Shown: positions 1,849-51,972 of the stretch, piece by piece | How the letters are laid out: every line of letters begins with the position of its first letter | How positions within the stretch are numbered: position 1 is the stretch's first letter | Origin: Halichondria panicea | Lineage: Eukaryota > Porifera > Demospongiae > Suberitida > Halichondriidae | DNA length: 64,000 nt | Direction of reading: 5' to 3' | NCBI RefSeq assembly: GCF_963675165.1 | Contig: NC_087379.1 | Span: 6,279,839 to 6,343,838 of the forward strand | Notes under the pieces: generated by a model | Database searches by the model: none | What the model saw: the letters and a program-made list of their open reading frames with translations, nothing else | What the model was told of the DNA's origin: nothing | Program-made: the position numbers and the translations under genes

Positions 1849-4092
1849 ATGGCCGAGAGAGTGACGACAAAAGAAGCTCTCAAGAAACTCGATGCTCAAC
1901 TCGAATGCTCCCTTTGTCTCGACACTTTCAAGCAGCCGAAACTCTTGCCTTGTTTTCACGTATTTTGCAAGTCCCCGTGTCTGGAGAAACTAGTGACCAA
2001 GGATGGACCCTCCCTCACTTGTCCCACCTGTCGACACATTGTCCCACTGTCAGAGAGGGGAGTGGCTGGACTGCAATCAGACTTCCACATCGACCACTTG
2101 TTTGAGATACAAGATTCTTTCAACAAGGCCAAGGATGAGAATGCTACAAATTGTGGCAACTGTGAGAATGGCAAAGCCACCGGATACTGTAACGATTGTG
2201 GGGACTTTTTGTGTGACAAGTGTCAAGCTGCTCACAAGATAGTTAAATACACACGTGAACATAAACTAATTTCGTTAGATGAACTCAAAGCTCAAGTGAC
2301 TAGCCTGGTTCCCCCAAAGAAAGCCGTCCCCCATTGCCCCAAACACTCGGAGAATTCCCTCAAGATATACTGTGATACCTGCTCCACTCTCATTTGCACG
2401 GACTGCACCATTCGTCTCCACAAAGATCACAACTACGACCTGGTGGCTGATGTGCTGACCAAGCACAAAGAAGAACTTGTCTCCAGTCTCAAACCAGTCA
2501 AAGAGAAGCTGGACAGTGTAAAACGAGCTCTGAAGGACTTTGACGCAAGAGCCAAGGCAATCCACGATCAGAGGGCCACGATTGAAGCTAACATCCACAA
2601 GGAGATTGACGAACAACATCAACTGTTGGACCAACGAAGGGCAGAGGTTGTGGAAGAGCTAGAGATGCTGACTCAGCAGAAGCTGAAGGATCTGGCGGCA
2701 CAGAAGGACCAAGTGGAGATCACTCAAGTGAAACTGACCAGCTGTCTGGAGTACGCTAAAGGGGGTCTCAAAACAGGCACAGACGGTGAAGTACTCGAAA
2801 TAAAATCTTCCTTTGTTAAGAGAGTTAAACAAATCACTGCAGAATTCGAATCATATGCTATTCAGCCAGAGACAAAGGCTGACATGGAACTGATCACTGA
2901 AGGAAAAGAACCTCTCAAACAAGCTTACCAAGATTTCCTAGAAGTTGATCACAATCGATCATTCAGCTTAGAGAACAGCCACATGACAGGAGATTGTCTG
3001 AAAGATGCTACCTCTGAAGAAACAAAAACTTTATCCTATCAAGCAATGACCAAAAATAACAAGAAATTCAAAGACAAACTTAACCTCAAAGCTGAACTTG
3101 TGCATATCGAAAGCAAAGGCATATTGAAATGTGAAGTGATCAAGGAACCACATGGCCAACACAAGATCAACTATCGCCCTGTGAAACGAGGAAAGCATGA
3201 ACTACACATCACTGTCAATGGGGACGCAGTACGAGACAATCCATTCCCAATAGCTGTAGCCCCATCACCACAGAGCTTCGGCAAGCCTTCCCGAGTTGTA
3301 CGAGGTGTGAAAAAACCACAAGGCACTGTCTTCAACAGTAAGGGACAGTTGGTTGTTGTTGGAGGTGATGGAACTACTGTCTCTGTATTGACACCAGAGG
3401 GTGAGAAGATACGAACGTTTGGACAGCTGAATAATGCAAGAGGAGTGACTGTCGACAAAGACGACAACATGTATGTTGTGGAGACCGGCAATCATCGTGT
3501 GAAAAAGTTCTCATCTGACGGAGAATTTATGGCAGCTGTTGGTAGTCACGGCAGTGGTAACCTTAAGTTTCTGCACCCTATTGGTATCTGTTATAGCAGA
3601 AGAGACAACAACCTGTATGTGGCTGATCGGAGTAACCACAGAATACAAGTGCTCTCTACTGAACTTAATTTCGTTCAATGTTTTGGCGCACAAGGCAATG
3701 GGAACAAACAATTATATAATCCACGGCATGCAACATTTGATAGTGCCAACAACCTTTATGTGACTGATAACGGTAACCATCGAGTACAAGTCTTCACTGC
3801 TGAAGGTCAATTCCTGAGAACCTTCTCACAAAAAGCCAACGGTAGGAAGCTGAGTTGTCCCTATGCCATAGCCATCGACAGCAGTGACACAGTGTACGTC
3901 AGTGAGAATGGATCACATCATGGACCACATCATGTGAGCGTGTTCACATCTCAGGGAGCCTACATCACCACGTTTGGTGGACTTGGAACGAAAGAGGAAC
4001 AGTTTAATAACATTTATGGACTTTCGATTGATAGCAATGATTCTGTTGTTGTGTCCGATCAAGGCAACTGGCGACTGCAGATATTCAAATGA
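1849..4092 (+). CDS. TRIM-NHL protein, array copy 1 (putative RING E3 ligase)
   Basis: Single-exon gene of 747 residues. Seen in order: RING (Cys20, Cys23, Cys35, His37, Cys40, Cys44, Cys58, Cys61); B-box 1 (Cys102 to His138); B-box 2 (Cys163, His166, Cys175, Cys178, Cys183, Cys186, His191, His194); a charged coiled coil (about 200-320); a filamin-type immunoglobulin domain (about 366-473, ending PFPIAV); and NHL repeats to the C-terminus. This is the TRIM2/TRIM3/TRIM71-type architecture: family members are cytoplasmic ubiquitin ligases whose NHL propeller binds RNA or protein. The Cys40-x3-Cys44 spacing is one residue longer than the usual RING C-x2-C. The start is the ATG in CCATGG, shared by copies 2, 3 and 5. 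A pyrimidine tract with CAG at 1800-1808, also in copies 2 and 3, looks like the acceptor of a 5'-UTR intron. Ligase activity and substrate are inferred only. Confidence 0.95.
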   Translation: MAERVTTKEALKKLDAQLECSLCLDTFKQPKLLPCFHVFCKSPCLEKLVTKDGPSLTCPTCRHIVPLSERGVAGLQSDFHIDHLFEIQDSFNKAKDENATNCGNCENGKATGYCNDCGDFLCDKCQAAHKIVKYTREHKLISLDELKAQVTSLVPPKKAVPHCPKHSENSLKIYCDTCSTLICTDCTIRLHKDHNYDLVADVLTKHKEELVSSLKPVKEKLDSVKRALKDFDARAKAIHDQRATIEANIHKEIDEQHQLLDQRRAEVVEELEMLTQQKLKDLAAQKDQVEITQVKLTSCLEYAKGGLKTGTDGEVLEIKSSFVKRVKQITAEFESYAIQPETKADMELITEGKEPLKQAYQDFLEVDHNRSFSLENSHMTGDCLKDATSEETKTLSYQAMTKNNKKFKDKLNLKAELVHIESKGILKCEVIKEPHGQHKINYRPVKRGKHELHITVNGDAVRDNPFPIAVAPSPQSFGKPSRVVRGVKKPQGTVFNSKGQLVVVGGDGTTVSVLTPEGEKIRTFGQLNNARGVTVDKDDNMYVVETGNHRVKKFSSDGEFMAAVGSHGSGNLKFLHPIGICYSRRDNNLYVADRSNHRIQVLSTELNFVQCFGAQGNGNKQLYNPRHATFDSANNLYVTDNGNHRVQVFTAEGQFLRTFSQKANGRKLSCPYAIAIDSSDTVYVSENGSHHGPHHVSVFTSQGAYITTFGGLGTKEEQFNNIYGLSIDSNDSVVVSDQGNWRLQIFK

Positions 4093-4380
4093 GATAGCTA
4101 GTGCAGCTAGTCAAGCCAAGAACTTTAAGTGGACTGTGTTTGTAGGTAGCTAATTAGCGGTAATAATTTAATTGTTAGCTGCGTTGTTCTAATGTATGTT
4201 TGTCCATGTTTCTATCAAACTAGGACAGCTTACATGTTTATTTGATATATTATGTGCACTTGTAGCCTATTGTGAAATCCAATTTTGTTTTCGTTATATC
4301 AGCTGTGGGATTTTTTGTGAATGTGCTTCAACACAATCATGCATGATTCAAACTTTACTTTTTTCTTAACACAAATACAG

Positions 4381-5730
4381 CTCTGCGGTACAACCTAGAG
4401 GCGGAGTGGCGTAATAGATACCCCGGGGGAAGGACACCGTACAGAGACGACCTCTTTGAGCTATGCAAGGCGGACATCTTGACCGATCACGAGGTCTCCA
4501 ATCTGCAGGTGAGGGGATACTATACACATACGTATGAAAGGAAATTACAAAACCTGTGTTTAGTGGGTAATATTGACTGCTAACACTTTGAGTGGTGGAC
4601 TGTGTCACTGTGAGTCACTAGTAATAATTATAGTTGTAGCAAGGTTTGTAGTATAGTTGCCTGGTAGCTGATTGCAGTAATGCACTATACGCTTTGCTAT
4701 ATATACCCACTATTCCTTACTTCTATGTCAAATGCATGTCAGTGAGGTACTTATTAATTAACAACGGACACACATTTACAGGTGGTGGTGATTGGAGACC
4801 AGAGTGCTGGCAAGACGAGTGTCCTGGAGATGGTTGCTAATGCTCGTATATTCCCACTGGGAGGAGGGGAGATGATGACTCGTAGCCCCACCATGGTTAC
4901 CCTTAGCAACGGAGCGGAATGAGTTGCTATGGTCTCTCTAATATCAGCCAATGACAAGTTTTAACTACACACATTACTATCAGAGCCAAGTGACAACTAC
5001 AGTACCTATTTTTGTTCCTGCTATTAACATTTTAGCATGCACAATCAATTACCAAAATTATTGAACTGTCAATTCAAAATGTCATCACTGTGTATAATTA
5101 AGTGTGACCTGACATCTGCTGACTATTTAATAGTACTGGTAAGCCTCACACAACTTTATACCTTCAATTACACCTACGTACAAATGCTCTAGAAGATCAT
5201 GTGTTGTCTCTCCTTAAAATTGGCATGTATGACTGTATATTATTTCTGTGATTGACTCAGCACTCTATTTGTACTGGTACATTGTAGATCTATTGTGGTG
5301 CTGTAAAATTGGTACAAAATAATTATACCGGTAGTTGTGACCATGTACTCTTCCACCCCACATGTATGACCTCACCAAGGAGGGGGACCTTTGTAGCCTC
5401 TGCACTGAGATTGAGCGTCAGATGAGAGTCTGCGTCCAATCAGGGAAGACCGTGAGCTCTCAGCCCATCTCCCTCACTGTGTACAGACCCCACCTCAAGT
5501 CTAGTTGACCTCCCTGGGATCATCAGTGTGAGTGTCATGTGACTGTACACTCAAATCATGTGACTGTGTGTATCCGTACAGACTGTGACCACTGGTATGG
5601 CCGTTAACATAAGAGAAGATATCATCAAAATGTGCAGGTGTTTTGTGTGTGTTGAGAATGTAGTGTTGAAAAGTTTAGTAAGTAATTCCTGTTCTTCCAC
5701 AGACAGTACATGCAGAACCCAAATAAGTGC
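4381..5730 (+). pseudogene. OPA1: OPA1-like dynamin GTPase exon remnants, set 1
   Basis: Five decaying exons follow TRIM copy 1. 4381-4508 encodes the post-GTPase segment (LRYNLEAEW, then DDLFELCKADIL) with intact AG and GT edges. 4782-4922 encodes the P-loop exon ([13 protein letters not shown], then GEMMTRSP) and ends in an in-frame TGA. 5364-5524 encodes YDLTKEGDL and a damaged DLPG region; its acceptor reads CACAT, not CACAG. 5582-5637 encodes TVTTGMA; 5703-5727 encodes YMQNPN and is truncated. These motifs match mitochondrial inner-membrane fusion GTPase OPA1 better than classical dynamin. In OPA1 the LRYNLE exon lies after the GTPase domain, yet here it comes first, as expected at the join of two tandem copies. 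The stop, lost acceptor and deletions make it non-functional. Confidence 0.85.
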
Positions 5731-5757
5731 TGTAATTAGGTTGCCCTGAGTGCAACC

Positions 5758-5816
5758 TAGTCTCATGAATCAGCCGCACCTTTGGTGTCCAAAGGTGCGG
5801 CTGATTCATGAGACTA
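5758..5816. mobile_element. 59-bp perfect palindrome with 9-bp target duplication
   Basis: Arms 5758-5785 and 5789-5816 are perfect 28-bp inverted repeats (TAGTCTCATGAATCAGCCGC inward) around a 3-base loop. The palindrome is flanked on both sides by AGTGCAACC (5749-5757 and 5817-5825). The sister repeat at 11868 reads CCCTGAGTGCTACC with no insertion, giving the empty site. This is a minimal foldback MITE. Confidence 0.9.
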
Positions 5817-5829
5817 AGTGCAACCAAGT

Positions 5830-7790
5830 GTTAAGCTTACAGTTCATCTGTACTTTAGCCTCTCGTAGTTGGTAGATCAGTCTACCCTTAGATAAACAAA
5901 CTGCACCTCATGCTCTATATTCACTTAAATATAGCTGTTTCAATACTACTATCATAGTACCACTCTTATCCACTGCCTCCTATTAGCTCCATACTATTAA
6001 CCTCTCTCAAGAAAGTTTGTTTGTGCCCTGAAACAGCTGCGAAGTACAAAGTTAACTCTGTATTTTACTCGAGGCCTCGTAAAATACAACAATCTTATCT
6101 CAATACGACCATAGATACAAGAGGAAGAGAGATTGGAAACGGAAGTGCCCTCGAAGTACCATCTGTGTATCTCCGCGATTTCAATTGACGCTTACTTTTA
6201 ACCGTGGAGGGTTAACATAAATAATTTATGAGAATTATTTTGCTGTGTGTAAAACATCCAAGAGCAGTTCTTCTGCTAAACATAACTTTCATCTCGTATA
6301 CTTGAGGCCATTAGGGACACAGCACACTACATAGTTTACACAGCCTTAGATCATACACAGTAAGGACTATATAATTTATTATATAGGTATAATTATATAT
6401 ACATAAGCATAAAGGCGCTGTGTACCTTTAGCTACTTCACGACAATCGAGATTATATTTTCTTCGTTTCCAATAACTACCATTAAGGGGCGGGCATATGT
6501 GATTCAGTAATGGGGGTAGCTCTGAGAGGTATGCATTGGACACAATAAGTTTCCCAGGCTTTCGCGGGAGTTGTGAAGAGATATACGAATGGTCCCAGAG
6601 CCACTACGTAGACTTTATTGTAAAACATCACATGAATCGCTTCCGTTCCTTATTATACTCTGATACGACTCAGCCTCTCATATAATTTTGTACTATCATT
6701 ATACATTGCACATCGGGGGGAGGGACTGTTCTGAAACCCAGAATATGCTTGTTATTCTGTTGATGAGTGACCGTGCAACAGTGTGTGTGTGTGTAGATAT
6801 TTCAACAGTACGTATATATATACGTTTCTCTTCTACCGGTATTATTACATTTGTACAGTGCATGTACATTGATATTGTAGGGTATTATTGAAAGCACGTC
6901 GGCATGTACAATGTCTGTGCTATATGATCCAGCTGGGGAATGTGCTATAAAATTGATGTCCTACACTGTATTGTTTTTGTAAGTGACCATGCATGCAACA
7001 GTGCGATGTGAACGTACAATAACATGACTGTGTTCAGAATAGCACCATATTTTTATTTTATTTTGAAACAACAACTGAAGAGCACGTCCGAATGTAGATC
7101 TTACGTATGATGTAACGTAGCCTCCTTCACAGTTTCCATTGAGGAAGTGCGGCCTGAGATCTAGATATACGTATATAATGCTGCAATGGCACCATAATTA
7201 CTCGAGCATCAAACATATGCAAACTTTGCGAGGGTTGCGAGGGTTAATCAATTCATAACAATAAAATCGCAAAACCTAAATTATTAATAGTAAAAGCAAA
7301 ATAAAACATTAGTAGCCGCGGTTCCTGATCAAGCATATACGGTACGCGCAATCCTTGCATGCCGGAACGCAATAGTTAGATAAAATTTTTTGCTGATTTG
7401 GCTGATTCGCAAAGGTTTTTCACCCGCAAAATATTCTAGTAATACGGTATGTAAAATACTTGCCTGTGGTTAAGTTCTAGTCAATGTGTTTACTTATTTG
7501 AGTTTGTGACATGTGAGAACTAGAATGGCTGCTATGAATATTGTTGCTCATATTTGACATAATTATGGTGAACCCCACCCATTCTGTTCTTCAAACTGTC
7601 AACAAAGAACTGTGAGTTAATCCCTCAAATGTGCATAACCTGTACTCGTACTCTTTGTATGTATCTTGCTAAACTATATTGACCTTGTGTGTGTATTTGT
7701 AGAATGTTTGTAAAACTTCTAATTTCCCCTCACAGATATCGCGTATCGCCCAGTGACAAATCTTACAACACTCGATAAATTCCCAAAGCC
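5830..7790. other. Intergenic 5' flank of TRIM copy 2
   Basis: No gene found. Short blocks are shared with the 5' flanks of the other array units, for example a TACATTGCACATCGGGGG block near 6702 (also near 12185) and a GAAAGCACGTCGGCATGTA block near 6890. A stretch at 6110-6150 (CATAGATACAAGAGG, GATTGGAAACG) resembles the end of the hAT-like family seen at 45589. A short relic at 7117-7166 (TAGCCTCCTTCAC, GAAGTGCGGCCTG) resembles both termini of the element at 57743. CCTCACAG at 7729-7736 marks the putative 5'-UTR splice acceptor of copy 2. Confidence 0.5.
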
Positions 7791-10027
7791 ATGGCCGAGA
7801 GAGTGACTACAAAAGACGCTCTCAAGAAACTTGATGCTCAACTCGCTCCCTTTGTCTCGACACTTTCAAGCAGCCGAAACTCTTGCCTTGTTTTCATGTG
7901 TTTTGCAAGTCCCCGTGTCTGGAGAAACTAGTGACCAAGGATGGACGCTCCCTAACTTGTCCCACCTGTCGACACATTGTCCCACTGTCAGAGAGGGGAG
8001 TGGCTGGACTGCAATCAGACTTCCACATCGACCACTTGTTTGAGATACAAGATGCTTTCAACAAAGCTGAAGACGACAATGATACAAACTGTGGCAGCTG
8101 TGAGGATGGCAAAGCCACTGGATACTGTAACGACTGTAACGACTGTGGGGACTTTTTGTGTGAGGAATGTCAAACTGCTCATAAGAGACTCAAATACACG
8201 AGGAATCATTATCTCATTTCGCTCAACGCACTCAAAGCTCAAATGACGGGCCTGGTTCCCCCCCAAAAAGCCACCCCCAATTGCCCTAAACACTCGAAGA
8301 ATGACCTCAAAATATACTGCGATACTTGCTCCACTCTCATTTGCATGGACTGCACCATTCGTCTACACAAAGACCATAACTACGACCTGGTGGCTGATGT
8401 GCTGACCAAGCACAAGGAAGAACTTGTCTCCAGTCTCAAACCAGTCAAAGAGAAGCTGGACAGTGTACAACGAGCTCTGAAGGACTTTGACACAAGAGCC
8501 AAGGCAATTCACGATCAGAGGACCACGATTGAAGCCAACATCCACAAGGAGATTGGTGAACAACATCGACTGTTGGATCAACGAAGGGCAGAGCTTGTAG
8601 GAGAGCTAGAGATGCTGACTCAGCAAAAGCTGAAGGATCTAGCGGCACAGAGGGACCAAGTGGAGATCACTCAGGTGAAACTGACCAGCTGTCTGGAGTA
8701 CGCTGAGGGGGGTCTCAAAACAGGCACAGACGGTGAAATACTCAAAATGAAATTTTCCGTTGTTAAGAGAGTCGAACAGATCACTACCGAATTCGAATCA
8801 AAAACTATTCAGCCAGAAACAAAGGCTGACATGGAACTGACCACAAAAGGAAAAGAACCTCTCCAACAAGCTTGCCGAGATTTCCTAGAGATTGAACAGC
8901 GTGGATCATTCAGTTTAGAGAACAGCCACACGACAGGAGATGGTCTAAAAGGTGCTACAATTGGAGAAATAAAAACTGTGTCCTTTCAACTAATGACCAA
9001 GAAAAACAAGAAATTCAACGGCAAAAGCAACCTCAAAGCTGAACTTGTGTATATCGTGAGCAAAGACATATTGAAATGTGAAGTGATCGATCAACAACAC
9101 GGTCAACACAAGATCAACTATCGCCCAATGAAACGAGGAAAGCATGAACTACACATCACTGTCAATGGGAACGCAGTACGAGGCAGTCCATTCCCAATAG
9201 CTGTAGCCCCATCACCACAGAGCTTCATCAAGCCTTCCCGAGTTGTACGAGGTGTGAACAAGCCACGAGGCACTGTCTCCAACAGTAAGGGAGAGTTGGT
9301 TGTTGTTGAAGGTGGTGGAGCTACTATCTCTGTATTGACACCAGAGGGTGAGAAGATACGAACGTTCGGAAAGCTGAATAATGCATATGGAGTGACTGTG
9401 GACAAAGACGACAACATCTATGTAATGGAAGTTAACAATCATCGTGTGAATAAGTTCTCATCCGACGGAGAGTTTGTGGCAGCTGGTGGTAGTCTAGGCA
9501 GTGGTAACCTTCAGTTTAGTGGCCCACTTGGTATTTGTTACAACAGAAGAGACAACAACCTGTATGTGCCTGATCAGAGTAACAACAGAATACAAGTGCT
9601 CTCTACTGAACTGAATTTCGTACGATGTTTCGGTACACCTGGCAAAGGGAACGGACAATTACAAAGCCCATTATATGCAGCATTTGATAGTGCCAATAAC
9701 CTCTATGTGACTGAGTACACTAACCATCGAGTACAAGTCTTCACTGCTGAAGGTCAATTCCTGAGAACCTTCTCACAAAAAGCCAACGGTCATCAGAAGC
9801 TGAGCTCACCCTATGCCATAGCCATCGACAGCAGTGACACAGTGTACGTTAGTGAGAATGGACTGTATCATGTGAATGTGTTCACATCTCAAGGAGCATA
9901 CATCACCACGTTTGGCGGACCAGGAACGAAAGAAGGACAGTTTAATAACATTTACGGACTCTCTATTGATCGCAATGACTCCGTTGTTGTATCCGATGAA
10001 GGCAACGAGCGACTACAGATATTCTAA
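7791..10027 (+). pseudogene. TRIM-NHL copy 2 with 4-bp frameshift in the RING
   Basis: The ATG at 7791 and its context match copies 1, 3 and 5, but 4 bp are missing at about 7844/7845, just where the first RING cysteine should be. Read from that ATG the protein goes out of frame and stops within 50 codons. The remainder is open from about 7883 to 10027 in the shifted frame and still encodes RING remainder, both B-boxes, coiled coil, filamin domain and NHL repeats. That frame has no ATG until about residue 118, in the linker before B-box 2. B-box 1 also carries a 9-bp tandem duplication (CNDCNDC). Either this is a young pseudogene, or it makes a RING-less protein from a downstream start. The long open remainder implies a recent break. 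Confidence 0.85.
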
Positions 10028-10290
10028 CGAGATAAGTGCAGTCAAGCCAAGATCTTTTAAGTAGACTATGCGTTGTAATTAATTTGTGCTCTAATGGAAC
10101 ATCTTGAAATAGTTGTTACAAAGTTTGTTTCTATGTTTGTAGCCATGTTTCTATCGAACTTGGACCACTTGCGGCGTATTTTGAAATCCAATTTTGTTCT
10201 CGTTATTAGCTGTGCGATTTTTTGTGAATGTTTATTCAGCACAATCGCATTTAAACTTTACAAATGTACTTGTTTTCAACTCGAATACAG

Positions 10291-11823
<1,533 letters not shown>

Positions 11824-13429: not shown

Positions 13430-13430
13430 T

Positions 13431-13613: not shown

Positions 13614-13654
13614 GCACAACTGTGCCAGTGTATATAATGTGCATATAACACCTA

Positions 13655-14090: not shown

Positions 14091-14094
14091 CGCC

Positions 14095-14535: not shown

Positions 14536-14544
14536 ATAAATAAC

Positions 14545-16778: not shown

Positions 16779-18998
16779 ATGGCCGAGAGAGTGACGACAA
16801 AAGAAGCTCTCAAGAAACTCGATGCTCAACTTGAATGCTCCCTTTGTCTCGACACTTTCAAGCAACCGAAACTCTTGCCTTGTTTTCACGTATTTTGCAA
16901 GTCCCCATGTCTGGAGAAACTAGTGACCAAGGATGGATGCTCCCTCACTTGTCCCACCTGTCGACACATCGTCCCACTATCGGAGAGGGGAGTGGCTGGA
17001 CTGCAATCAGACTTTCACATCGACCACTTGTTTGAGATACAAGATGCTTTCAACAAAGCTGAAGACGACAATGATACAAACTGTGGCAGCTGTGAGGATG
17101 GCAAAGCCACTGGGTACTGTAACGATTGTGGGGACTTTTTATGTGACGAATGTCAAACTGCTCACAAGAGACTCAAATACACAAGGAATCATAAACTAAT
17201 TTCGCTGGATGAACTCAAAGCTCAAGTGACTAGCCTGGTTCCCCCCAAGAAAGCCGTCCCCCATTGCTCCAAACATTCGGAGAATGCCCTCAAGATATAC
17301 TGTGATACTTGCTCCACTCTCATTTGCATGGACTGCACCATTCGTCTCCACAAAGACCACAACTACGACCTGGTGGCTGATGTGCTGACCAAGCACAAAG
17401 AAGAACTTCTCTCCAGTCTCAATCCAGTCAAAGAGAAGCTAGACAGTGTACAACGAGCTCTGAAGGACTTTGACACAAGAGCCAAGGCAATCCACAATCA
17501 GAGGGCCGCGATTGAAGCCAACATCCACAAGGAGATTGACGAACAACATCGATTGTTAGATCAACGAAGGGCAGTGCTTGTAGGAAAGCTAGAGATGCTG
17601 ACTCAGCAGAAACTGAAGGATCTGGCGGCACAAAGGGACCAAGTGGAGATCACTCAGGTGAAACTGACCAGCTGTCTGGAGTACGCTGAGGGGGGTCTCA
17701 AAACAGGCACAAACGGTGAAGTACTCGAAATGAAAACTTCCGTTCTCAAGAGAGTCAAACAAATTTCTACTGAATTCGATCGAAACACAATTCAGCCAGA
17801 AACAAAGGCTGACATAGAAATGATCACAAAAGGAAAAGAACCTCTCCAACAAGCTTGCCGAGATTTCCTAGAGATTGATCACAGTGGATCATTCAGCTTA
17901 GAGAATAACCACATAACAGGAGATGGTCTGAAAGGTGCTACAACTGGAGAAACAAAAACTGTATCCTTTCAAGCAAAAACCAGAAATGTCAAACGCAAAC
18001 TCGACCTCAAAGCTGAACTCGTGCGTTTGGAGAGCAAAGATATATTGAAATGTGAAGTGATCGATCAACAACACGGCCAACACAAGATCAACTATCGCCC
18101 AATGAAACGAGGAAAGCATGAACTACACATCACAGTCAATGAGGACGCAGTACGAGGCAGTCCATTCCCAATAGCTGTAGCCCCATCACCACAGAGCTTC
18201 GTCAAGCCTTCCCGAGTTGTACGAGGTGTGAACAGCCCACGAGGCACTGTCTACAACAGTAAGGGACAGTTGGTTGTTGTTGAAAGTGGTGGAGCTACTG
18301 TCTCTGTATTGACACCAGAGGGTGAGAAGATACGAACGTTTGGGCAGCTGAATAATGCATTTGGAGTGACTGTGGACAAAGACGACCAAATTTATGTAGT
18401 GGAGTATGCCAATCATCGTGTGAATAAGTTCTCGTTCGACGGAGAGTTTGTGGCAGCCGTTGGTAGTTCAGGCAGTGGTAACCTTCAGTTTAGTAACCCA
18501 TTTGGTATCTGTTATAACAGAAAAGACAACAACCTGTATGTTCCTGATCAGTGTAACCACAGAATACAAGTGCTCTCTACTGAACTGAAGTTCGTACGAT
18601 GTTTCGGCACACCTGGCAATGGGAACGGACATTTAAAGCAACCACTGTATGCTACATTTGATAGTGCCAACAACCTCTATGTGACTGAGTTTGCTAACAA
18701 TCGAGTACAAGTCTTCACTGCCGAAGGTCAATTCCTGAGAACCTTCTCACAAAAAGCCAATGGTCAGAAGTTGAGCTCACCCTATGCCATAGCCATCGAC
18801 AGCAGTGACACAGTCTACGTCAGTGAGAATGGACCGAATCATGTGAGTGTGTTCACATCTCAGGGAGCCTACATCACCACGTTTGGTGGGTTAGGAACGA
18901 AAGAGGGACAGTTTAATGGCATTTATGGATTCGCTATTGATTGCAATGACTCTATTGCTGTATCTGATATGAACAACGGGCGACTGCAGATATTTTAG
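16779..18998 (+). CDS. TRIM-NHL protein, array copy 3
   Basis: Intact single-exon gene, 739 residues, same domain order as copy 1: RING with Cys20/Cys23 and the unusual Cys40-x3-Cys44 spacing, two B-boxes, coiled coil, filamin-type domain, NHL propeller. The filamin region is a few residues shorter than in copy 1. Nucleotide identity with copy 5 is very high through B-box 2, coiled coil and filamin regions, while NHL loops differ more. That pattern suggests recent duplication or gene conversion of the N-terminal half, with change in the binding surface. The same CCATGG start is used. Confidence 0.95.
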   Translation: MAERVTTKEALKKLDAQLECSLCLDTFKQPKLLPCFHVFCKSPCLEKLVTKDGCSLTCPTCRHIVPLSERGVAGLQSDFHIDHLFEIQDAFNKAEDDNDTNCGSCEDGKATGYCNDCGDFLCDECQTAHKRLKYTRNHKLISLDELKAQVTSLVPPKKAVPHCSKHSENALKIYCDTCSTLICMDCTIRLHKDHNYDLVADVLTKHKEELLSSLNPVKEKLDSVQRALKDFDTRAKAIHNQRAAIEANIHKEIDEQHRLLDQRRAVLVGKLEMLTQQKLKDLAAQRDQVEITQVKLTSCLEYAEGGLKTGTNGEVLEMKTSVLKRVKQISTEFDRNTIQPETKADIEMITKGKEPLQQACRDFLEIDHSGSFSLENNHITGDGLKGATTGETKTVSFQAKTRNVKRKLDLKAELVRLESKDILKCEVIDQQHGQHKINYRPMKRGKHELHITVNEDAVRGSPFPIAVAPSPQSFVKPSRVVRGVNSPRGTVYNSKGQLVVVESGGATVSVLTPEGEKIRTFGQLNNAFGVTVDKDDQIYVVEYANHRVNKFSFDGEFVAAVGSSGSGNLQFSNPFGICYNRKDNNLYVPDQCNHRIQVLSTELKFVRCFGTPGNGNGHLKQPLYATFDSANNLYVTEFANNRVQVFTAEGQFLRTFSQKANGQKLSSPYAIAIDSSDTVYVSENGPNHVSVFTSQGAYITTFGGLGTKEGQFNGIYGFAIDCNDSIAVSDMNNGRLQIF

Positions 18999-19775: not shown

Positions 19776-19801
19776 GTGTTTAGTAACGAGAATGTGCGTA
19801 A

Positions 19802-20034
19802 TACCGCATAGCGCGAAATTTTCAAGGCACTTATATTTCATGGACTGGCCTCTAAAAGCATTTCGTTGCACAATGTTTGCAGAATGACTGCATGCTTACC
19901 GGAAGCCACGCCTTTAAATCTTTGCACGTTATAGCAGATAATTCAAATTAAGGAACAATTTCCGTGGACTTAATAATTTATTTTCACGAAATCCACGAAA
20001 ATTAAGCCCCTCGAAAATTTCACACTATACGGTA
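19802..20034. mobile_element. TA-flanked MITE (CCGTATAGCGCGAAATTTT family)
   Basis: The left end TACCGCATAGCGCGAAATTT and the right end, read in reverse, TACCGTATAGTGTGAAATTT form inverted termini of about 25 bp bounded by TA. It was inserted 18 bp after the target duplication of the previous MITE. Confidence 0.8.
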
Positions 20035-20511
20035 TCTAAACCTTCTCTTCAATCTATTTGTACTAGTACTTTTACTGTGGTGCTGTAAAATTTGGTTGAT
20101 GGTATTGCATACGTCGATCCACGACTTGTAAATTGTCTCTAACATTCATAGCGGGTACCCGTACAAGACTCGATATAGTGATGCCATGTACTCTTCCACC
20201 CCACAGGTTGTATGACCTTACCAAGGAGGGGGACCTTCGTAGCATCTGCACTGAGATTGAGTGTCCGATGGAGAGTCAAGTCAGCGTCCAATCAGGGAAG
20301 ACCATGAGATCTCAGCCTATCTCCCTCACTGTGTACGGACCCCACCTCAAGAGAATGGTCCTGGTCTACCTCCCAGAGATTGTCAGTGTGAGTGTCATGT
20401 GACTGTGTGTATCCCTACAGACTGGTATGGCCATTAACACATGAGAAGAGATAATCAAAATGTGCAGGTGTGTTGTGATATATAGTACATAATTCCTGTT
20501 CATTATTCATT

Positions 20512-20631
20512 ACGTTTGGTGGGTCAGGAACGAAAGAGGGACAGTTTAGGAGCATTTACGGACTCTCTATTGATTGCAATGACTCTATTGTTGTGTCTGA
20601 TCAAAACAATGGGCAACTTCAGATATTCTAA
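20512..20631 (+). pseudogene. NHL C-terminal relic, last 39 codons
   Basis: In frame, this encodes TFGGSGTKEGQF through QIF and stop: the last NHL strand of the TRIM-NHL family. It is joined directly to the intron after the TGMA exon of the OPA1-like remnant (ATTCCTGTTC), so everything upstream in the TRIM gene was deleted. The following 3' flank matches those of the 23028 relic and copy 5. Confidence 0.9.
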
Positions 20632-21090
20632 TGAAATGATTATATTTTAATGAGATAAGAACTTTAGAGTGTCAGTTAATTTGTGTTCTAGTCTGAAATC
20701 CAACAAGCGAACCTGGGGTTTAGCTTAGTGTGAAATGGTTGTAACAGTACGTCTTTAAGTTTGGATATGTTTGAAATCTATGGTTATTAGCTGTGAATTA
20801 ATTGTCTGTTTTAGCACATGAAGTATGCGTGGAAAATTCACTGTTTACTTGATTCTCTTTATTGCACTCACACTCTGCCAGCACATGTCATTAATATGTT
20901 ACAAATGGTTCAGTGGATGCTGAGAGGAGAATAATAATTATATTTGACAGTCAGATGGACCTAGAAGGTTCCTATAGATGCCTGTATACTGTTTGAACTA
21001 TTACTGTTGTGTTTGTGTGTATCCTCAATACCTACACAGCCTTGTCTAACCTCAAAACTTTTGTCACGATTTCCAGCGCTGTTTCTCTTT
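20632..21090. other. TRIM 3'-flank homology block
   Basis: No gene. The stretch around 20815-20930 (GCACATGAAGTATGC, CACTCTGCCAGCACATGTC) recurs near 23755 and 28616, marking three successive array repeats. Confidence 0.7.
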
Positions 21091-21094
21091 TTAT

Positions 21095-21295
21095 CAAGGC
21101 TCTCGTACGATATTTGTGCTCACCAAAGTTGACCTGGTGGAGAAGGGTGCATGGAGTCAAACAAGACAGAGTGAATGTGTGACCAATCAGATTGATGCTA
21201 TAAAACTGATTACCCCTGCAGATGCTCTCAATTCTGGATGGCCAGTTGTTCTCAATGAAGGCTTTGGATACTATGCCTGGTTACTGGGAGAGGTA
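21095..21295 (+). pseudogene. OPA1: OPA1-like G4 exon remnant (FVLTKVDLVEKG), repeat A
   Basis: An ATCAAG acceptor-like edge is followed by codons for RTIFVLTKVDLVEKG, the G4 (TKVD) region of OPA1, then degenerate sequence ending GYYAWLLGE, matching the OPA1 segment after KALGYF. In OPA1 this follows the YMQNPN exon; here the NHL relic lies between them, consistent with a TRIM gene nested in that intron. Confidence 0.8.
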
Positions 21296-21299
21296 TGTA

Positions 21300-22115
21300 T
21301 ATGTATGTGTACTGTACTTATCATGAACTGTTACACTCTAGCAGAGCAGTTTTCTAAGTGATTTTGTTTTCATGTGTCCTAATTGTTAATGTGTATAGAA
21401 TGTATAGGGAGTCCATCAACAATCAGGCACTGCACTTTAAGAGCTAGTGCGCATGCGTTGGATATTAATATTGTACATAACCATGATAACTATAGTGAAC
21501 TGGGCTTCGACTCTTTAATAGCTGGTTCTTTATAATCATGGATTTTATATGTGAGCACGTTAGACTTTGAATCTAAGTTTAATACTCGGCAGGACCTTTA
21601 TTTTTTTATAGTGCAGTGCTCATTGCAATTCTGCATGTCGCTATATATTCAGTACACATTTTCTGAGATAGTGGCAAGCTAGCGAATTCTGGCAGGTCAA
21701 CAGGTCGGACATTCAGAAAGCACTCAATTGCAAAGACACAGCAATTAAAGAGACTGACTGCATGTGTGAACCTTCTATATGTAGTATCTTCCGTTTGCAT
21801 AATTATTATTTTAGTGATTGTCATACAAACTGTAGGGTCATCAAAATATCTCAACTATTAAGTACGCGGTATGAAGTTTTTGCACAACTACACCTACGCA
21901 TGTATATCCCTACTATGCTCTAAACGTTCATCCATGTATTGTCTCCATTGTCTCTACTCATGTGTACATGACTTGTGGGGTGCTGTAAAATAGGTTGGGT
22001 GGTATGTACATGCATATGCATATACATTCATAGCTATTAATCGACTTTAATATTAATGTACACCCGTATATAAGATAGTGACGTAACGTGGCCATATACT
22101 CTCCCACCCCATGCA
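21300..22115. other. Array spacer without genes
   Basis: Nothing coding is recognised. Blocks such as CAATCAGGCACTGC...AAGAGCTAGTG (near 21420) recur near 24540 and 28740. A stretch near 21640-21850 recurs near 28930-29170, so the spacer belongs to the duplicated unit. Confidence 0.6.
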
Positions 22116-22118
22116 CAG

Positions 22119-22391
22119 GTGTATGACCTCACCAAGGAGGGGGCCTTCGTAGCCTCTGCACTGAGATTAAGCGTCAGACGAGGGTCAGCGTCCAATCAGG
22201 GAAGACCGTGAGCTCTCAGCCCATCTCTCTCACCGTATACAGACCCCACTTCAAGAGAAAGGTCCTGGTTGACCTCCCAGAGATTGTCAGTGTGAGTGTC
22301 ATGTGACTGTACACTCAATCATGTTACTGTGTATAGACGGTGACCACTGATATGGTCGCTAACACAAGAGAAGATGTCATCAAAATGTGCA
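22119..22391 (+). pseudogene. OPA1: OPA1-like exon remnants, set 4
   Basis: 22119-22290 encodes VYDLTKEG, then loses one base (GGAGGGGGCC for GGAGGGGGACC), shifting the frame. 22337-22391 is the TVTTDMV version of the TSGMA exon with intact splice edges. The sequence then passes into the dispersed element at 22450. Confidence 0.8.
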
Positions 22392-22449
22392 GGTGTGTTG
22401 TGTGTGGTGACTGTAGTGTGGAAAGTGTCTAGTAATTCCTGTTCATTAA

Positions 22450-22660
22450 TTTTAGCTTTTATACTAGTACTTTTGGCATTCTTTTTAGCACCATTGCTAT
22501 CATGGTCAATTATTTCCCACTATTGAGTTTCCCTGTAATTCCGTGATTATTATGCGGCAAAGTCTCGAGACTAGCAATAATGTAGTAGCAATCAGTAGCT
22601 TTATGTTATGTCAACGTATACCGAGGTATTCAGCACCCGCGGTGCTTTCGTATATATTCT
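22450..22660. repeat. Interspersed element, ends with GCACCCGCGGTGCTTTC
   Basis: The same sequence occurs at about 24940-25255 (same direction) and inverted at about 55262-55570 inside an SRM2 intron. Shared marks are TTTTAGCTTTTATACT, a CAACATGGTCAAT-type block and the palindromic GCACCCGCGGTGC end. The remote inverted copy shows it is a mobile repeat, not only part of the array. Confidence 0.7.
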
Positions 22661-23027
22661 TCAAGTGTTCAAACAATTTTTAGGGAATTCTGCAACAGCT
22701 TGAAAAGCTGTTGCATATAATTATAAGAGCTTATCAACTTTAGAGTCAACTCACGGTTAGCACTCAGGGCCTCGTAAAATACAACAATTACGACCCAGCC
22801 TCTCATGTATACGATATGGTGCATTGCACATGAGGGAATGTGAAATTGTGGGAATTGTGGACTGAAATTGTTTGCAGTTTTAGTGTATATAACTAAAACT
22901 GCAATGTATTGATCATCGAACGTGATATTGAAAGCACAAATATCACTTGTACATTGACCATTGGGGGGAGAGGCTGTAAAATTGAAATTTATGACTTTTG
23001 CGGGTGACCACGCTAGATCTACGGTGT

Positions 23028-23567
23028 GTTGGTAGTCGAGGCAGTGGTAACCTTCAGTTTAGTGACCCATTTGATATTTGTTACAACAGAAGAGACAACA
23101 ACCTGTATGTGACTGATAATTGTAACCACAGAATACAAGTGCTCTCTACTGAACTAAAGTTCGTACGATGTTTCGGTACACCTGGCAATGGGAACAGACA
23201 ATTACAAAACCCACTGTATGCATCATTTGATAGTGCCAACAACCTCTATGTTACTGAGTACATTAATCATCGAGTACAAGTCTTCACTGCTGAAGGTCAA
23301 TTCCTGAGAACCTTCTCACAAAAAGCCAACGGTCAGAAGCTGAGTTATCCCTATTCCATAGCCATCGACAGCAGTGACACAGTGTACGTCAGTGAGAATG
23401 GACCGCATCATGTGAGTGTGTTCACATCTCAGGGAGCCTACATCACCACGTTTGGTGGGCAAGGAACGAAAGAGGGACAGTTTAATGGCATTTATGGACT
23501 CGCTATTGATAGCATTGATTCTGTTGTTGTGTCCGATCAAGACAACGGGCGACTACAGACATTCTAA
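23028..23567 (+). pseudogene. NHL-only relic of a TRIM-NHL gene (array copy 4)
   Basis: 180 in-frame codons encode roughly the last four NHL repeats (GSRGSGNLQFSD to RLQTF, stop). Upstream, GACCACGCTAGATCTACGGTGTG matches non-coding sequence far upstream of copy 5 (25621-25643) and is fused directly to NHL sequence, so about 2.3 kb including promoter, RING, B-boxes, coiled coil and filamin domain was lost in one deletion. No ATG begins the frame. The reading frame has no stop, which points to a recent event. Confidence 0.9.
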
Positions 23568-23987
23568 TGAGATAAGAAGTTTAGAGTGTCAGGTACTGTG
23601 TACATTTTTTGTGGTGTTAATTTGTGTTCTAGTCTGAAATCCGACAAGTGAACCTGGTTTGGCTTAGTGTGAAAATTGTTGTAATAGTACGTCTTTAAGT
23701 TGATTTGTTTGAAAATCTGTGGTTATCAGCTGTGAATTAATTGTCTGTTTTAGCACATGAAGTATGCATGGAAAATTCACTGTTTACTTGATTCTCTTTA
23801 TTGCACTCACACTCTGCCAGCACATGTCATTAATATGTTACAAATGGTTCAGTGGATGCTGAGAGAATCATAATATTATATTGACAGACATTGTCAGTCA
23901 ACTATGGTCAAATGGACCCAGAATTAGATTGCCTGTACTGTCGGGTTACCTCAAACTATTACTGTTGTATTAGTGTGTACACTCAAT

Positions 23988-24140
23988 ACCTACACAGCCT
24001 TGTCCTCGTAACTGCCTTACTAATACTAATATAATACCTACACAGCATTGTCCTCGTGACTGCCTTACTGATACTAATATAATACCTACACAGCCTTGTC
24101 CTCGTGACTGCCTTACTGATACTAATACCTACACAGCCTT
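23988..24140. repeat. 48-bp tandem repeat, about 3 copies
   Basis: Units starting ACCTACACAGC at 23988, 24036, 24084 and 24127 (last spacing 43), each containing TTGTCCTCGT(A/G)ACTGCCTTACT. The sister repeat near 21035 has a single unit. Confidence 0.9.
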
Positions 24141-24211
24141 GCATTGTCTAACCTCAAAACTCTTGTCAGGATTTCCAGCGCTGTTTTATAATTATCTCTC
24201 CTTTTCTCGAG

Positions 24212-24405
24212 GCTCTGGTACGATATTTGTGCTCACCAAAGTTGACCTGGCGGAGAAGGGTGGAGTCAAACAAGACAGGGTGAGTGTGTGTGACCAATCA
24301 GATTGATGCTATATAACTGATTGCCCCTGCAGATGCTCTCAATTCTGGATGGTCAGTTGTTCTCAATGAAGGCCCTTGGATACTATGCCTGGTTACTGGG
24401 AGAGG
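24212..24405 (+). pseudogene. OPA1: OPA1-like G4 exon remnant, repeat B
   Basis: Encodes GTIFVLTKVDLAEKGG, closer to OPA1 than repeat A at 21095 (LAEK), then KQDR, after which the frame is lost. ALGYYAWLLGE is still readable in another frame. Together with repeat A it confirms that the G4 exon belonged to the duplicated unit. Confidence 0.8.
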
Positions 24406-24409
24406 TATG

Positions 24410-26245
24410 TATATATATATATATGTGTACTGTACTTATCATGAACTGTTACACTCTAGCGGAGCAGTTTTCTAAGTGATTTTGTGTTCATGTGTCCTAA
24501 TTGTTAATGTGTATATAGAATGTATAGGGAGTCCATCAACAATCAGGCACTGCGCTTTAAGAGCTAGTGTGCATGCGTTGGATATTAATATTGTACATAA
24601 CCATGATAACTATAGTGGGCTTCGACTGGTTCTTTCTAATTATGGATTTTTATATGTGAGCACGTTAGACTTTGAATCTAAGTTCAATTCTTGGCAGGAC
24701 CTTTATTTTTTTATAGTACAGCTCGTGATTTTCTGCATATTCTACGGTGGCCCTGAGCGCTACTAGTAGTTCACCTTAGCTACTTAATAGTTCACCTACC
24801 TTAGCTACTTGATAGTTCGCCTACCTTAGCTACTTGATAGTTCAACTACCTAAGTTTGTAAGTTCAACAACCTTAGCTACTTGATAGTTGACCTACCTTC
24901 GCTGCTTGATAGTTCACCTACCTTAGCTAAAACAAAATTCAAGAGTTTGAACAGAGCTGCAAGCCTCTGCTGACGTGACATGATGCAGCAGCCATTAATT
25001 TTAGCTTTTATACTTGTACTTTTGGCATTCTTTTTAGCACCAATTGCAATCATGGTCAATCATTTCCCACTATTGAGTTTTCCCGTAATTCCGTGATTAG
25101 TTATAAGCGGCAATAATTAGTCGCGAGACTAGCAATAATTATTACCTATAAATTATTGTGTGTATTAGCAATAGCTATACTAGTAGCTTTATGTTATGTC
25201 AGCTATGACACATTACACCGAGGTATTCAGCACCCGCGGTGCTTTCATATATATATTCTTTCAGTTAAGTGTTCAAACAATTTTTAGGGAATTCTGCAAC
25301 AGCTATAGGTACATATAATTACAGGAGCTATCAACTTCAGAATCAACTCAAGGTTAGCACTCAGGGCCTCGTAAAATACAACAATTACGACCCAGCCTCT
25401 CATGTATACGATATGGTGTATTGCACATGGGGGAATGTGAAATTGTGGGAATTGTGGACTGAAATTGTTTGCAGTTTTAGTGTATTTACTAAAACTGCAA
25501 TGTATTGATCATCGAATGTTGATATTGAAAGCACAAATATAATAATCCAGTTTTCTATACTTGTACATTGACCATTGGGGGGAGAGGCTGTAAAATTGAA
25601 GTGTATGACTTTTTGCGGGTGACCACGCTAGATCTACGGTGTGTGTAAGTGGTTTCGTTATTGTATTGCAACAGTAGACTTGTAGCAGCTCGATTTTTTT
25701 TGAAAAAGAGAAGTTGAAGAGCACATCAAAATGTGCGAATACTGTGTAGAATGCTTGGTTAAGTAGTCGGTTCTAGTCTGAGTTTGTGAATTTTTATCAA
25801 GCCTGGAGAGTAGAGGGAACAACACATCTTCCTGCTATTGTGGAAATGGTTGCTATGAATATTGTTACATTATTGACATCTGGTGAATCTCACATGACAT
25901 TCTGTGTTGCTTCTCTTAATAATTCTAGCTGAATGTCCTACACAAGGAATTGTGAGTTTATCCCTTAATGTGCTGACTTGTATGACTGTACATGTGTTGA
26001 CTGTCTGTATGTGTGCTAGTATGTGTACTAGGAATGAATAATATGAATATAAATACCGTACTTCTTCGCAATAAGGCACCCCCTGAGAATTTGCATACAT
26101 GTAGAACCGTATAAATTTTGAATACACTAGATCAAGTGGCACCTTTAATATTTAGAAGAAAATTAATACAGTGCAGTTTGTAAAACTTCAATTTTCCTCA
26201 CATGCCAGTAAGAAGCCTTACAAGACTTGATCATATCCCAAAACC
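24410..26245. other. 5' flank of TRIM copy 5
   Basis: No gene. Contents: spacer homology to 21300-21550; a 25-bp minisatellite (TTAGCTACTTGATAGTTCACCTACC, about six units, 24766-24930); a second copy of the GCACCCGCGGTGC-ended element (about 24940-25255); and at about 26054-26174 a possible small TA-flanked MITE (TACCGTACTTCTTCGC). The putative 5'-UTR acceptor seen in copies 1 to 3 is altered here (CCTCACATGCCAG). Confidence 0.6.
24766..24930. repeat. 25-bp minisatellite
   Basis: About six imperfect units of TTAGCTACTTGATAGTTCAC plus CTACC. Absent from the sister spacers near 21580 and 28900. Confidence 0.9.
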
Positions 26246-28468
26246 ATGGCCGAGAGAGTGACGACAAAAGAAGCTCTCAAGAAACTCGATGCTCAACTTG
26301 AATGCTCCCTTTGTCTCGACACTTTCAAGCAGCCGAAACTCTTGCCTTGTTTTCATGTGTTTTGTAAGTCCCCGTGTCTGGAAAAACTAGTGACCAAGGA
26401 TGGACGCTCCCTCACTTGTCCCACCTGTCGACACGTTGTCCCACTGTCAGAGAGGGGAGTGGCTGGACTGCAATCAGACTTCCACATTGACCACTTGTTT
26501 GAGATACAAGATGCTTTCAACAAGGCCGATGATACAAACTGTGGCAGCTGTGAGGATGGCAAAGCCACCGGATACTGTAACGACTGTGGGGACTTTTTGT
26601 GTGACAGGTGTCAAGCTGCTCACAAGTTTGTTAAATACACTCGTCAACATAAACTGATTTCGCTGGATGAACTGAAAGTTCAAGTGACTAGTCTGGTTCC
26701 CCCCAAGAAGGCTGTCCCCCATTGCCCCAAACACTCGGGGAATGACCTCAAGATATACTGCGATACCTGCTCCACACTCATTTGCATGGACTGCACCATT
26801 CGTCTCCACAAAGACCACAACTACGACCTGGTGGCTGATGTGCTGACCAAGCACAAAGAAGAACTTGTCTCCAGTCTCAAACCAGTCAAAGAGAAGCTGG
26901 ACAGTGTACAACGAGCTCTGAAGGACTTTGACACAAGAGCCAAGGCAATCCACAATCAGAGGGCCGCGATTGAAGCCAACATCCACAAGGAGATTGATGA
27001 ACAACATCGACTGTTAGATCAACGAAGGGCAGAGCTTGTAGGAGAGCTAGAGATGCTGACTCAGCAGAAACTGAAGGATCTGGCGGCACAAAGGGACCAA
27101 GTGGAGATCACTCAGGTGAAACTGACCAGCTGTCTGGAGTACGCTGAGGGGGGTCTCAAAACAGGCACAGACGGTGAAGTACTCGAAATGAAAACTTCCG
27201 TTCTCAAGAGAGTCAAACGAATTTCTACTGAATTCGATCGAAACACAATTCAGCCAGAAACAAAGGCTGACATAGAACTGATCACAAAAGGAAAAGAACC
27301 TCTCCAACAAGCTTGCCGAAGTTTCCTAGAGATTGATCACAGTGGATCATTCAGCTTAGAGAACAGCCACACGACAGGAGATGGTCTGAAAGGTGCTACA
27401 ACTGGAGAAACAAAAACTGTATCGTTTAAAGCAAAAACCAAGAGTAACAGAAATGTCAAACGCAAACTCGACCTCAAAGCTGAACTCGTGCATTTGGAGA
27501 GCAAAGATATATTGAAATGTGAAGTGATCGATCAACAACACGGCAAACATAAGATCAACTATCGCCCAATGAAACGAGGAAAGCATAAACTACACATCAC
27601 TGTCAATGAGGACGCAGTACGAGGCAGTCCATTCCCAATAGCTGTAGCCCCATCACCACAGAGCTTTGTCAAGACTTCCCGAGTTGTACGAGGTGTGAAC
27701 AGTCCACGAGGCACTGTCTTCAACAGTAAGGGACAGTTGGTTGTTGTTGAAAGTAATGGAGCTACTGTCTCTGTATTGACACCAGAGGGTGAGAAGATAC
27801 GAACGTTTGGTCAGCTGAAGAATGCACATGGAGTGACTGTGGACAAAGACGACAAAATTTATGTAGTGGAGAATGGCAATCATCGTGTGAATAAGTTCTC
27901 ATCCGCCGGAGATTTTGTTAAAGTTAGTGGTAGTCAAGGCAATGGTAACCTTCAGTTGTATATCCCAGTTGGCATCTGTTATAACAGAAGAGACAACAAC
28001 TTGTATGTGGTTGATCAGGGTAACCACAGAATACAAGTGCTTTCCACTGATTTGAAGTTCATACGGTGTTTCGGTACACAAGGCAATGGGAACGGACAAT
28101 TACAAAACCCACTGTATGCATCATTTGATAGTGCCAACAACCTCTATGTGACTGATCGTGGTAACCATCGAGTACAAGTCTTCACTGCTGAAGGTCAATT
28201 CCTGAGAACAACCTTCTCACAAAAAGCCAACGGTCAGAAGCTGAACTCACCCTGGGCCATAGCCGTCGACAGCAGTGACACAGTGTACGTCAGTGAGAAT
28301 GGACCGAATCATGTGAGTGTGTTCACATCTCAGGGAGCCTACATCACCACGTTTGGTGGGCATGGAACGAAAGAGGGACAGTTTAATAACATTTATGGAC
28401 TCTCTATTGATCGCAATGACTCTATTGTTGTATCCGATCAAGACAACGGGCGACTGCAGATATTCTAA
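26246..28468 (+). CDS. TRIM-NHL protein, array copy 5
   Basis: Intact single-exon gene, 740 residues, domains as in copy 1: RING, B-box 1, B-box 2, coiled coil, filamin-type domain, NHL propeller. The acidic linker before B-box 1 is shorter (FNKADDTN) than in copies 2 and 3 (FNKAEDDNDTN). All zinc ligands seen in copy 1 are present, including the C-x3-C spacing. It is very close to copy 3 from B-box 2 to the filamin domain. It is the last member of the array; no OPA1-like exons follow it, though general 3'-flank and spacer homology continues to about 29170. Confidence 0.95.
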   Translation: MAERVTTKEALKKLDAQLECSLCLDTFKQPKLLPCFHVFCKSPCLEKLVTKDGRSLTCPTCRHVVPLSERGVAGLQSDFHIDHLFEIQDAFNKADDTNCGSCEDGKATGYCNDCGDFLCDRCQAAHKFVKYTRQHKLISLDELKVQVTSLVPPKKAVPHCPKHSGNDLKIYCDTCSTLICMDCTIRLHKDHNYDLVADVLTKHKEELVSSLKPVKEKLDSVQRALKDFDTRAKAIHNQRAAIEANIHKEIDEQHRLLDQRRAELVGELEMLTQQKLKDLAAQRDQVEITQVKLTSCLEYAEGGLKTGTDGEVLEMKTSVLKRVKRISTEFDRNTIQPETKADIELITKGKEPLQQACRSFLEIDHSGSFSLENSHTTGDGLKGATTGETKTVSFKAKTKSNRNVKRKLDLKAELVHLESKDILKCEVIDQQHGKHKINYRPMKRGKHKLHITVNEDAVRGSPFPIAVAPSPQSFVKTSRVVRGVNSPRGTVFNSKGQLVVVESNGATVSVLTPEGEKIRTFGQLKNAHGVTVDKDDKIYVVENGNHRVNKFSSAGDFVKVSGSQGNGNLQLYIPVGICYNRRDNNLYVVDQGNHRIQVLSTDLKFIRCFGTQGNGNGQLQNPLYASFDSANNLYVTDRGNHRVQVFTAEGQFLRTTFSQKANGQKLNSPWAIAVDSSDTVYVSENGPNHVSVFTSQGAYITTFGGHGTKEGQFNNIYGLSIDRNDSIVVSDQDNGRLQIF

Positions 28469-49772: not shown

Positions 49773-51972
<2,200 letters not shown>

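Follow-up and report, generated by a model that had tools for sequence, protein, structure and literature searches.

TRIM-NHL genes among decayed OPA1 exons in the sponge Halichondria panicea: sequence support for nesting in an OPA1 intron

Introduction

A tandem array on one contig (C3) of the sponge Halichondria panicea sets intronless TRIM-NHL genes among broken exons of the mitochondrial dynamin OPA1. How did the two come to share these units, and was one of them a guest in an intron of the other? A sequence-only reading of the locus had proposed a TRIM-NHL gene nested in an OPA1 intron, with the composite then copied as a unit. The right end of the array (C3 6.201-6.308 Mb) is the 64-kb stretch C3:6279839-6343838, referred to here as the window; the genome searched comprised 131 Mb in 39 contigs.

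Results

Layout of the array

The window contains three intact TRIM-NHL open reading frames, the number of intact nested genes given by the sequence-only reading, together with one frameshifted copy and two relics. These genes and the OPA1 exon relics around them are listed by window position.

1849-4092, plus strand: intact intronless TRIM-NHL gene of 747 aa (RING, B-boxes, filamin, NHL; coiled coil by position)
4380-4487, plus strand: OPA1 LRYNLE exon relic (tblastn map)
4782-4931, plus strand: OPA1 P-loop exon relic with an in-frame stop
5358-5540, plus strand: OPA1 DLTKE exon relic with a frameshift
5582-5638, plus strand: OPA1 TSGMA exon relic (tblastn map)
5704-5723, plus strand: OPA1 YMQNPN exon relic, partial alignment
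6767-6926, plus strand: stretch preceding the next TRIM that matches internal positions 140-353 of the YMQNPN-DGSVD intron in intact OPA1
7791-10027, plus strand: TRIM-NHL gene with a frameshift near codons 18-20
10290-10346, plus strand: OPA1 LRYNLE exon relic, partial
10930-11080, plus strand: OPA1 P-loop exon relic with a frameshift
11424-11613, plus strand: OPA1 DLTKE exon relic with a frameshift
11659-11812, plus strand: OPA1 TSGMA and YMQNPN exon relics
16779-18998, plus strand: intact TRIM-NHL gene
20208-20468, plus strand: OPA1 DLTKE and TSGMA exon relics
20512-20628, plus strand: TRIM-NHL relic (codons 708-746) between TSGMA and DGSVD relics
20904-21441, plus strand: OPA1 DGSVD (20904-20969), TKVD, LDGQ, and GMLR exon relics; the DGSVD acceptor reads AA instead of AG
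22148-22393, plus strand: OPA1 DLTKE and TSGMA exon relics
23019-23564, plus strand: TRIM-NHL relic (codons 561-746) between TSGMA and DGSVD/TKVD relics
23843-24561, plus strand: OPA1 DGSVD (about 23843-23905, acceptor AA), TKVD, LDGQ, and GMLR exon relics
26246-28468, plus strand: intact TRIM-NHL gene
28705-29064, plus strand: relics of the OPA1 DGSVD exon (28705-28740) and of the last exon (VRMI); the array ends here on the right

A long CACACA-type simple repeat at window 10628-11299 runs into the OPA1 P-loop relic there, and the listed open frame tracks the repeat.

The tblastn map of OPA1 exons and TRIM spanned a 174-kb region, and right of 6200.5 kb (C3 6200.5-6343.8 kb) it gave 100 merged pieces, all 100 on the plus strand. 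At the DNA level, blastn found a few short inverted OPA1 matches (6204238, 6216185, 6221572, 6231267, and 6299687) and, therefore, the earlier claim that all pieces lie on the plus strand is true for the tblastn-mapped pieces only. The full order of a unit is P-loop, DLTKE, TSGMA, YMQNPN, TRIM, DGSVD, TKVD, LDGQ, GNSGE, GMLR, LRYNLE, and then P-loop again, with some pieces absent from each unit. The tandem junction, LRYNLE followed by P-loop, occurs four times in the array. When the pieces of a second partial OPA1 copy (OPA1 copy 2, 6222.6-6226.5 kb) were excluded, 33 of 50 neighboring exon pairs were exact next-exon neighbors in OPA1, and 0 of 10000 shuffles reached as many. The nearest piece left of TRIM was TSGMA or YMQNPN in 10 of 17 cases (equaled in 0 of 10000 shuffles), and the nearest piece on the right belonged to DGSVD through LRYNLE in 13 of 18 (equaled in 6 of 10000). 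This one-strand arrangement in OPA1 exon order around TRIM-NHL genes far exceeds chance. The proposed exon order thus held, except that the exon following TRIM is DGSVD, which had been missed, and not TKVD. Every mapped exon occurred together in no unit, and a complete OPA1 coding gene was not found among the array pieces.

A complete OPA1 gene without TRIM

A complete OPA1 gene lies at the left edge of the array (C3 6193.4-6199.9 kb), 80 kb left of the window. Its 21 mapped exons were located by eye and modelled from the SEIK exon onward, downstream of the targeting and membrane parts, and the splice sites were chosen by script (GT or GC, AG, frame, no stop) among 2-11 candidates per intron; joining the exons at GT-AG sites is possible and yields 738 codons that end in a stop and contain no other. 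A hand-joined peptide of 743 aa aligned nearly end to end with the short form of human OPA1 (PDB 8eew; 8e-194, query 7-739), and the gene has both the dynamin GTPase and the OPA1 C-terminal region expected of OPA1/Mgm1. The array pieces, in contrast, are fragmentary and cannot encode OPA1. All six matches to the OPA1 C-terminal region (PF19434) fell within C3 6197.9-6225.9 kb, and Dynamin_N matches elsewhere were to other or unassigned dynamin-type genes. One of these dynamin-like matches, at C3 7261385, was considered as a second OPA1 and rejected, as it reads as what we take, from its motif, to be a mitofusin.

The intron between YMQNPN and the next exon, DGSVD, is 546 bp long in the complete gene. 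A check that had been suggested beforehand was whether this intron holds a TRIM-NHL gene; it does not, and no trace of TRIM was found in it. Judged from its sequence, the complete gene presents the empty site.

OPA1 copy 2 is a second copy of the 3′ half of the gene (C3:6222620-6227639, L032). It is preceded by decayed array-type pieces, and the tblastn map did not find the DGSVD, TKVD, and LDGQ exons in it. In the 422 codons from GMLR to VRMI, all 20 differences between it and the complete gene are silent, with no amino-acid change. We interpret OPA1 copy 2 as the outcome of recent unequal crossing-over between two functional alleles that had diverged, or possibly as a haplotype misjoin.

Intron sequence on both sides of TRIM

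Nested and flanking arrangements look alike by exon order in a tandem array and, therefore, intron sequence was used instead, with positions numbered from 6195201. Two blocks from inside the intact intron, at about 154-195 and 268-345, recurred in order from YMQNPN to TRIM in seven of 10 intervals, with a best E of 3e-8; additional matches near 433-476 were weak. Since gapped pairwise alignments of the intron flanks were mostly no better than shuffles, profiles were used. A left-of-TRIM profile from four intervals matched positions 154-335 of the intact intron. A right-of-TRIM profile from ten tails, five of them from L038, L039, L043, L045, and L055, matched positions 461-543, up to the exon. 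None of 200 dinucleotide shuffles reached the score of either profile; the right-hand match is of modest strength, scoring 7.1 (E 0.21) where the best of the 200 shuffles scored 6.4. Of three other OPA1 introns scanned, one also matched the left profile, at two places, suggesting that part of this flank is a dispersed repeat. A genome search queried with the intact intron reported no array blocks.

The left and right OPA1 sides complement each other: from YMQNPN to DGSVD, exons are neither skipped nor repeated. The boundary letters at DGSVD agree by eye between the array and a group of minus-strand copies described below. On this evidence, the guest of the array is placed in the intron between about positions 345 and 461. 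A guest inside one host intron, with intron on both sides, was found in the array copies and not in the complete OPA1 gene. The proposal that an intronless TRIM-NHL gene lies in the OPA1 intron after YMQNPN is thus supported by the interior blocks on the left and the tail on the right.

Parts of the 315 bp upstream of TRIM matched in five of seven copies without a clear OPA1 flank. Homology 3′ of the gene to these seven copies mostly ended within 15 bp of the end of the open reading frame; as exceptions, one pair matched over 42 bp, and L040 has a separate repeat at a distance of 0.6-0.7 kb. Together, these observations would fit copying at the DNA level, with the upstream region carried along, better than a retrocopy, against which the shared upstream sequence counts.

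Decay of the OPA1 pieces and constraint on TRIM

Many host exons are frameshifted or absent. After seven of 72 relic exons below half coverage were dropped, 27 of 65 were frameshifted and 6 of 65 had a stop, so the statement that every host copy carries such lesions was too strong. Nor were splice sites lost in every copy: the acceptor AG was kept at 57 of 62 and the donor GT at 47 of 50 aligned sites, counts for which local alignment favors conserved edges. The P-loop donor was aligned in 0 of 9 copies. The DGSVD acceptor is AA in all five array copies and AG in six of seven minus-strand copies; AG was not found in L054. The five array copies of DGSVD probably share one acceptor defect. When relics were compared with the complete gene, pN/pS was 0.34, and when they were compared with one another it was 0.50, suggesting that for some of their history they belonged to functional genes.

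A sample of 27 TRIM copies was picked from full-length matches, with one internal-deletion copy (6243006) and four relics of the region outside it, and 23 of the 27 were open. The frame-broken T3, T9, T12, and L055 and the outgroup or partial rows L050, L051, and L052 were left out of the dN/dS calculation. The median dN/dS was 0.41, and by domain it was 0.10 for RING, 0.21 for the B-boxes, 0.40 for the coiled coil, 0.57 for filamin, and 0.55 for NHL. The sampled TRIM genes are constrained while many host pieces are broken, in agreement with the earlier suggestion that selection keeps the guest and not the host. A Pfam scan took 20 of the 23 open copies (three crossed locus borders), and RING, B-box, filamin, and NHL models matched all 20; the coiled coil is assigned from position only.

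Within the NHL domain, 18 of 30 hypervariable sites (five or more residues) fell in 25 register positions (hypergeometric p 4e-15), an enrichment that is descriptive since the register was picked after the variable sites were seen. In the blades, these positions are the two that precede the conserved N and those surrounding the conserved P; going by the NHL motif register, they presumably lie on the ligand face. The pN was 0.40 at the register positions and 0.068 elsewhere in NHL, and the dN/dS was 1.03 (1.21 in the 11 closest pairs) compared to 0.43 elsewhere. One of ten shifted-register controls (+16) gave a dN/dS of 1.08, at a lower pN of 0.17.

TRIM copies elsewhere and reshuffling

The genome search gave at least 33 places with at least 80% identity to the first TRIM-NHL protein, at least 32 of them on C3 and at least one on contig C9; 60 of 321 candidates were scored, and one split gene was counted once. 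On C3, the copies form groups at 5.88-5.96 Mb (plus strand), 5.99-6.06 Mb (minus strand), and 6.20-6.31 Mb (plus strand), in addition to a lone copy at 5.109 Mb. In 15 sampled loci outside the 6.2-Mb array, the right intron tail was strong in eight, weak in one (on C9), and absent from six; five of the eight strong-tail loci had helped to build the profile, so that only L044, L046, and L054 are independent. The OPA1 tail lies 3′ of TRIM in the minus-strand copies and in the lone copy. The relics after TRIM at strong-tail loci were DGSVD with TKVD or LDGQ in five and LDGQ alone in one. No left-hand OPA1 piece was found within 1.0-2.9 kb upstream of the sampled copies outside the array. Inside the array, the YMQNPN-side piece lies 1.1-5 kb from TRIM and, thus, its absence from the span searched elsewhere is not strong evidence.

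The backbone of the TRIM tree did not resolve, and the OPA1-flanked copies required three changes on it. A single clade of all OPA1-flanked TRIMs was tried and mildly rejected (p 0.0165). This suits an old nesting followed by losses, or recombination.

Copying of host and guest as one rigid unit, as had been supposed, found no support from co-phylogeny. The pieces are ordered in units, but across nine units the TRIM distances were uncoupled from those of their own upstream (left) OPA1 pieces (Mantel r -0.06, p 0.62), suggesting that the units were reshuffled. For 2 of 23 TRIM copies, the three segments had one nearest relative in common. L047 (C3 5.957 Mb) and L048 (5.913 Mb) are near-identical over their first 470-500 codons and differ in their NHL propellers, with 0 of 191 fourfold differences in codons 1-470 and 12 of 115 in codons 471-746 (the NHL part), as if the recognition domain had been exchanged. 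On these comparisons, NHL segments recombine and the TRIM copies have mosaic histories. Variability at repeated motif positions, together with recombination of NHL, suggests a diversifying recognition family. The copies most likely work as a putative E3 ligase family with varied targets, an activity and recognition predicted from their domains and variation.

Discussion

It is fairly probable, in our judgment, that a guest TRIM-NHL gene entered the intron of an OPA1 copy, multiplied with the host pieces, and was then shuffled, its open reading frames being kept by selection. The nesting, the empty site, the decay of the host pieces, the mosaic histories, and the pattern of variation can be read from the alignments. 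An intronless TRIM-NHL gene, copied as DNA along with part of its upstream sequence, would have entered the YMQNPN-DGSVD intron of an OPA1 copy, and the complete gene without the guest would have remained at the array's left edge. We infer this direction, insertion and not loss from the complete gene, and also the copying step, in which unequal crossing-over would have multiplied the TRIM-bearing copy into tandem units of P-loop to YMQNPN, TRIM, and DGSVD to LRYNLE. Later recombination would have shuffled TRIM genes, NHL segments, and OPA1 pieces, and TRIM copies carrying the intron tail may also have reached other sites on C3. Selection would retain the TRIM open reading frames and let the repeated propeller positions vary.

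The array could instead be the older state, if an ancestral OPA1 held TRIM in its intron and the complete gene lost it by deletion. The OPA1 tail flank does occur in distant branches of the TRIM tree (the lone 5.109-Mb copy, the minus-strand array, and the 6.2-Mb array), which suggests that the nesting is old within this TRIM family; the intact intron, however, has both the left and right blocks with no TRIM trace found, so that loss would need a clean deletion, and we consider this history unlikely. Another account does without nesting: a TRIM gene already in place came to lie between two partial duplicates of OPA1, one of which stops within the intron where the other begins, and the array then grew by tandem duplication. 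Tandem arrays are circular in this respect, TRIM copies without OPA1 exist, and the sampled copies outside the array have the right-hand OPA1 piece only, all of which such an account would accommodate. Against it, the two sides are complementary in one intron, with intron homology on both and no exon missing or doubled between them, and we judge it quite improbable.

We think it very unlikely that the OPA1 pieces remain in use, whether, for instance, TRIM transcripts include them as untranslated exons or they contribute to a second OPA1 product. Such use would be consistent with the mostly retained splice sites, a pN/pS among relics of 0.50 and not 1, and the purely silent differences in OPA1 copy 2, but it is at odds with the frameshifted relic exons, the DGSVD acceptor broken in every array copy, and the exons not found in OPA1 copy 2, and a low pN is also expected from repeated donation by functional OPA1 alleles. 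Returning to the intronic guest amplified with its host, one tentative suggestion, which we hold with considerable doubt, is that the broken OPA1 exons act as recombination handles. Their homology would permit unequal crossing-over and conversion, multiplying TRIM-NHL, helping to swap propellers, and exchanging with the complete OPA1, an exchange of which OPA1 copy 2 looks like a product. If so, a housekeeping gene would be the scaffold for an innate recognition repertoire.

TRIM2, TRIM3, and TRIM71 form small, conserved families. Their class and Drosophila Thin have domain order and NHL similarity in common with the array TRIMs, whose NHL matched that of Thin at 3e-60 and that of TRIM71 at 7e-40; here, in contrast, the family is large and made up of close relatives that vary at NHL positions. 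LRRTM genes in alpha-catenin introns resemble the array in that a nested gene was co-duplicated with its host, with later loss of host or guest reported in some lineages (PMC3933685). That system has three host-guest pairs on opposite strands, whereas here the guest is on the same strand and tandemly amplified, and the host copies are fragmentary beside a TRIM-free OPA1. Nested genes in mammals have been surveyed (PMC8467205), and tandem TRIM expansions in animals have been noted (PMC3503706). The fish TRIM-B30.2 multigene families (finTRIM, btr, and trim35-like) are likewise a TRIM expansion with a hypervariable recognition region that binds ligand, for which positive selection and recombination tests are reported (PMC3137616). 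They differ in that their recognition domain is B30.2, while the family here has an NHL propeller, single-exon genes in an array of OPA1 fragments, and dN/dS counts only. A sponge study makes only passing mention of NHL in the portion consulted (PMC8242945). Among the matches listed from open PubMed Central papers, none concerned an OPA1-TRIM array. Nested genes and TRIM expansions are already known; the present combination of the two looks new.

The locus suggests that an intronic guest can be amplified by the copying of its host and then outlive the host copies; an OPA1 gene bordering the array still has the empty intron. A second implication is an animal TRIM-NHL family whose propeller recombines and shows variation at repeated positions, a family similar in kind to fish TRIM-B30.2. 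This family is a candidate for the recognition of many targets.

Other features of the region

Inverted copies at C3:6252324-6253102 and 6272080-6272854 are 98.8% alike and may represent a mobile element, active in recent times, that lies between units of the array. Window 51104-53252 contains local direct repeats (141-480 bp; 79-97% identity), and an Ephrin-receptor ligand-binding domain lies within a single open frame at window 35730-36458 on the minus strand. At C3:6174091-6185026 (L027 and L028), there are three tandem genes of the same kind, whose aligned blocks share about 90% DNA identity. A domain scan of the first gives RING/TRAF zinc finger/MATH (TRAF-like), and the third is split across two frames.
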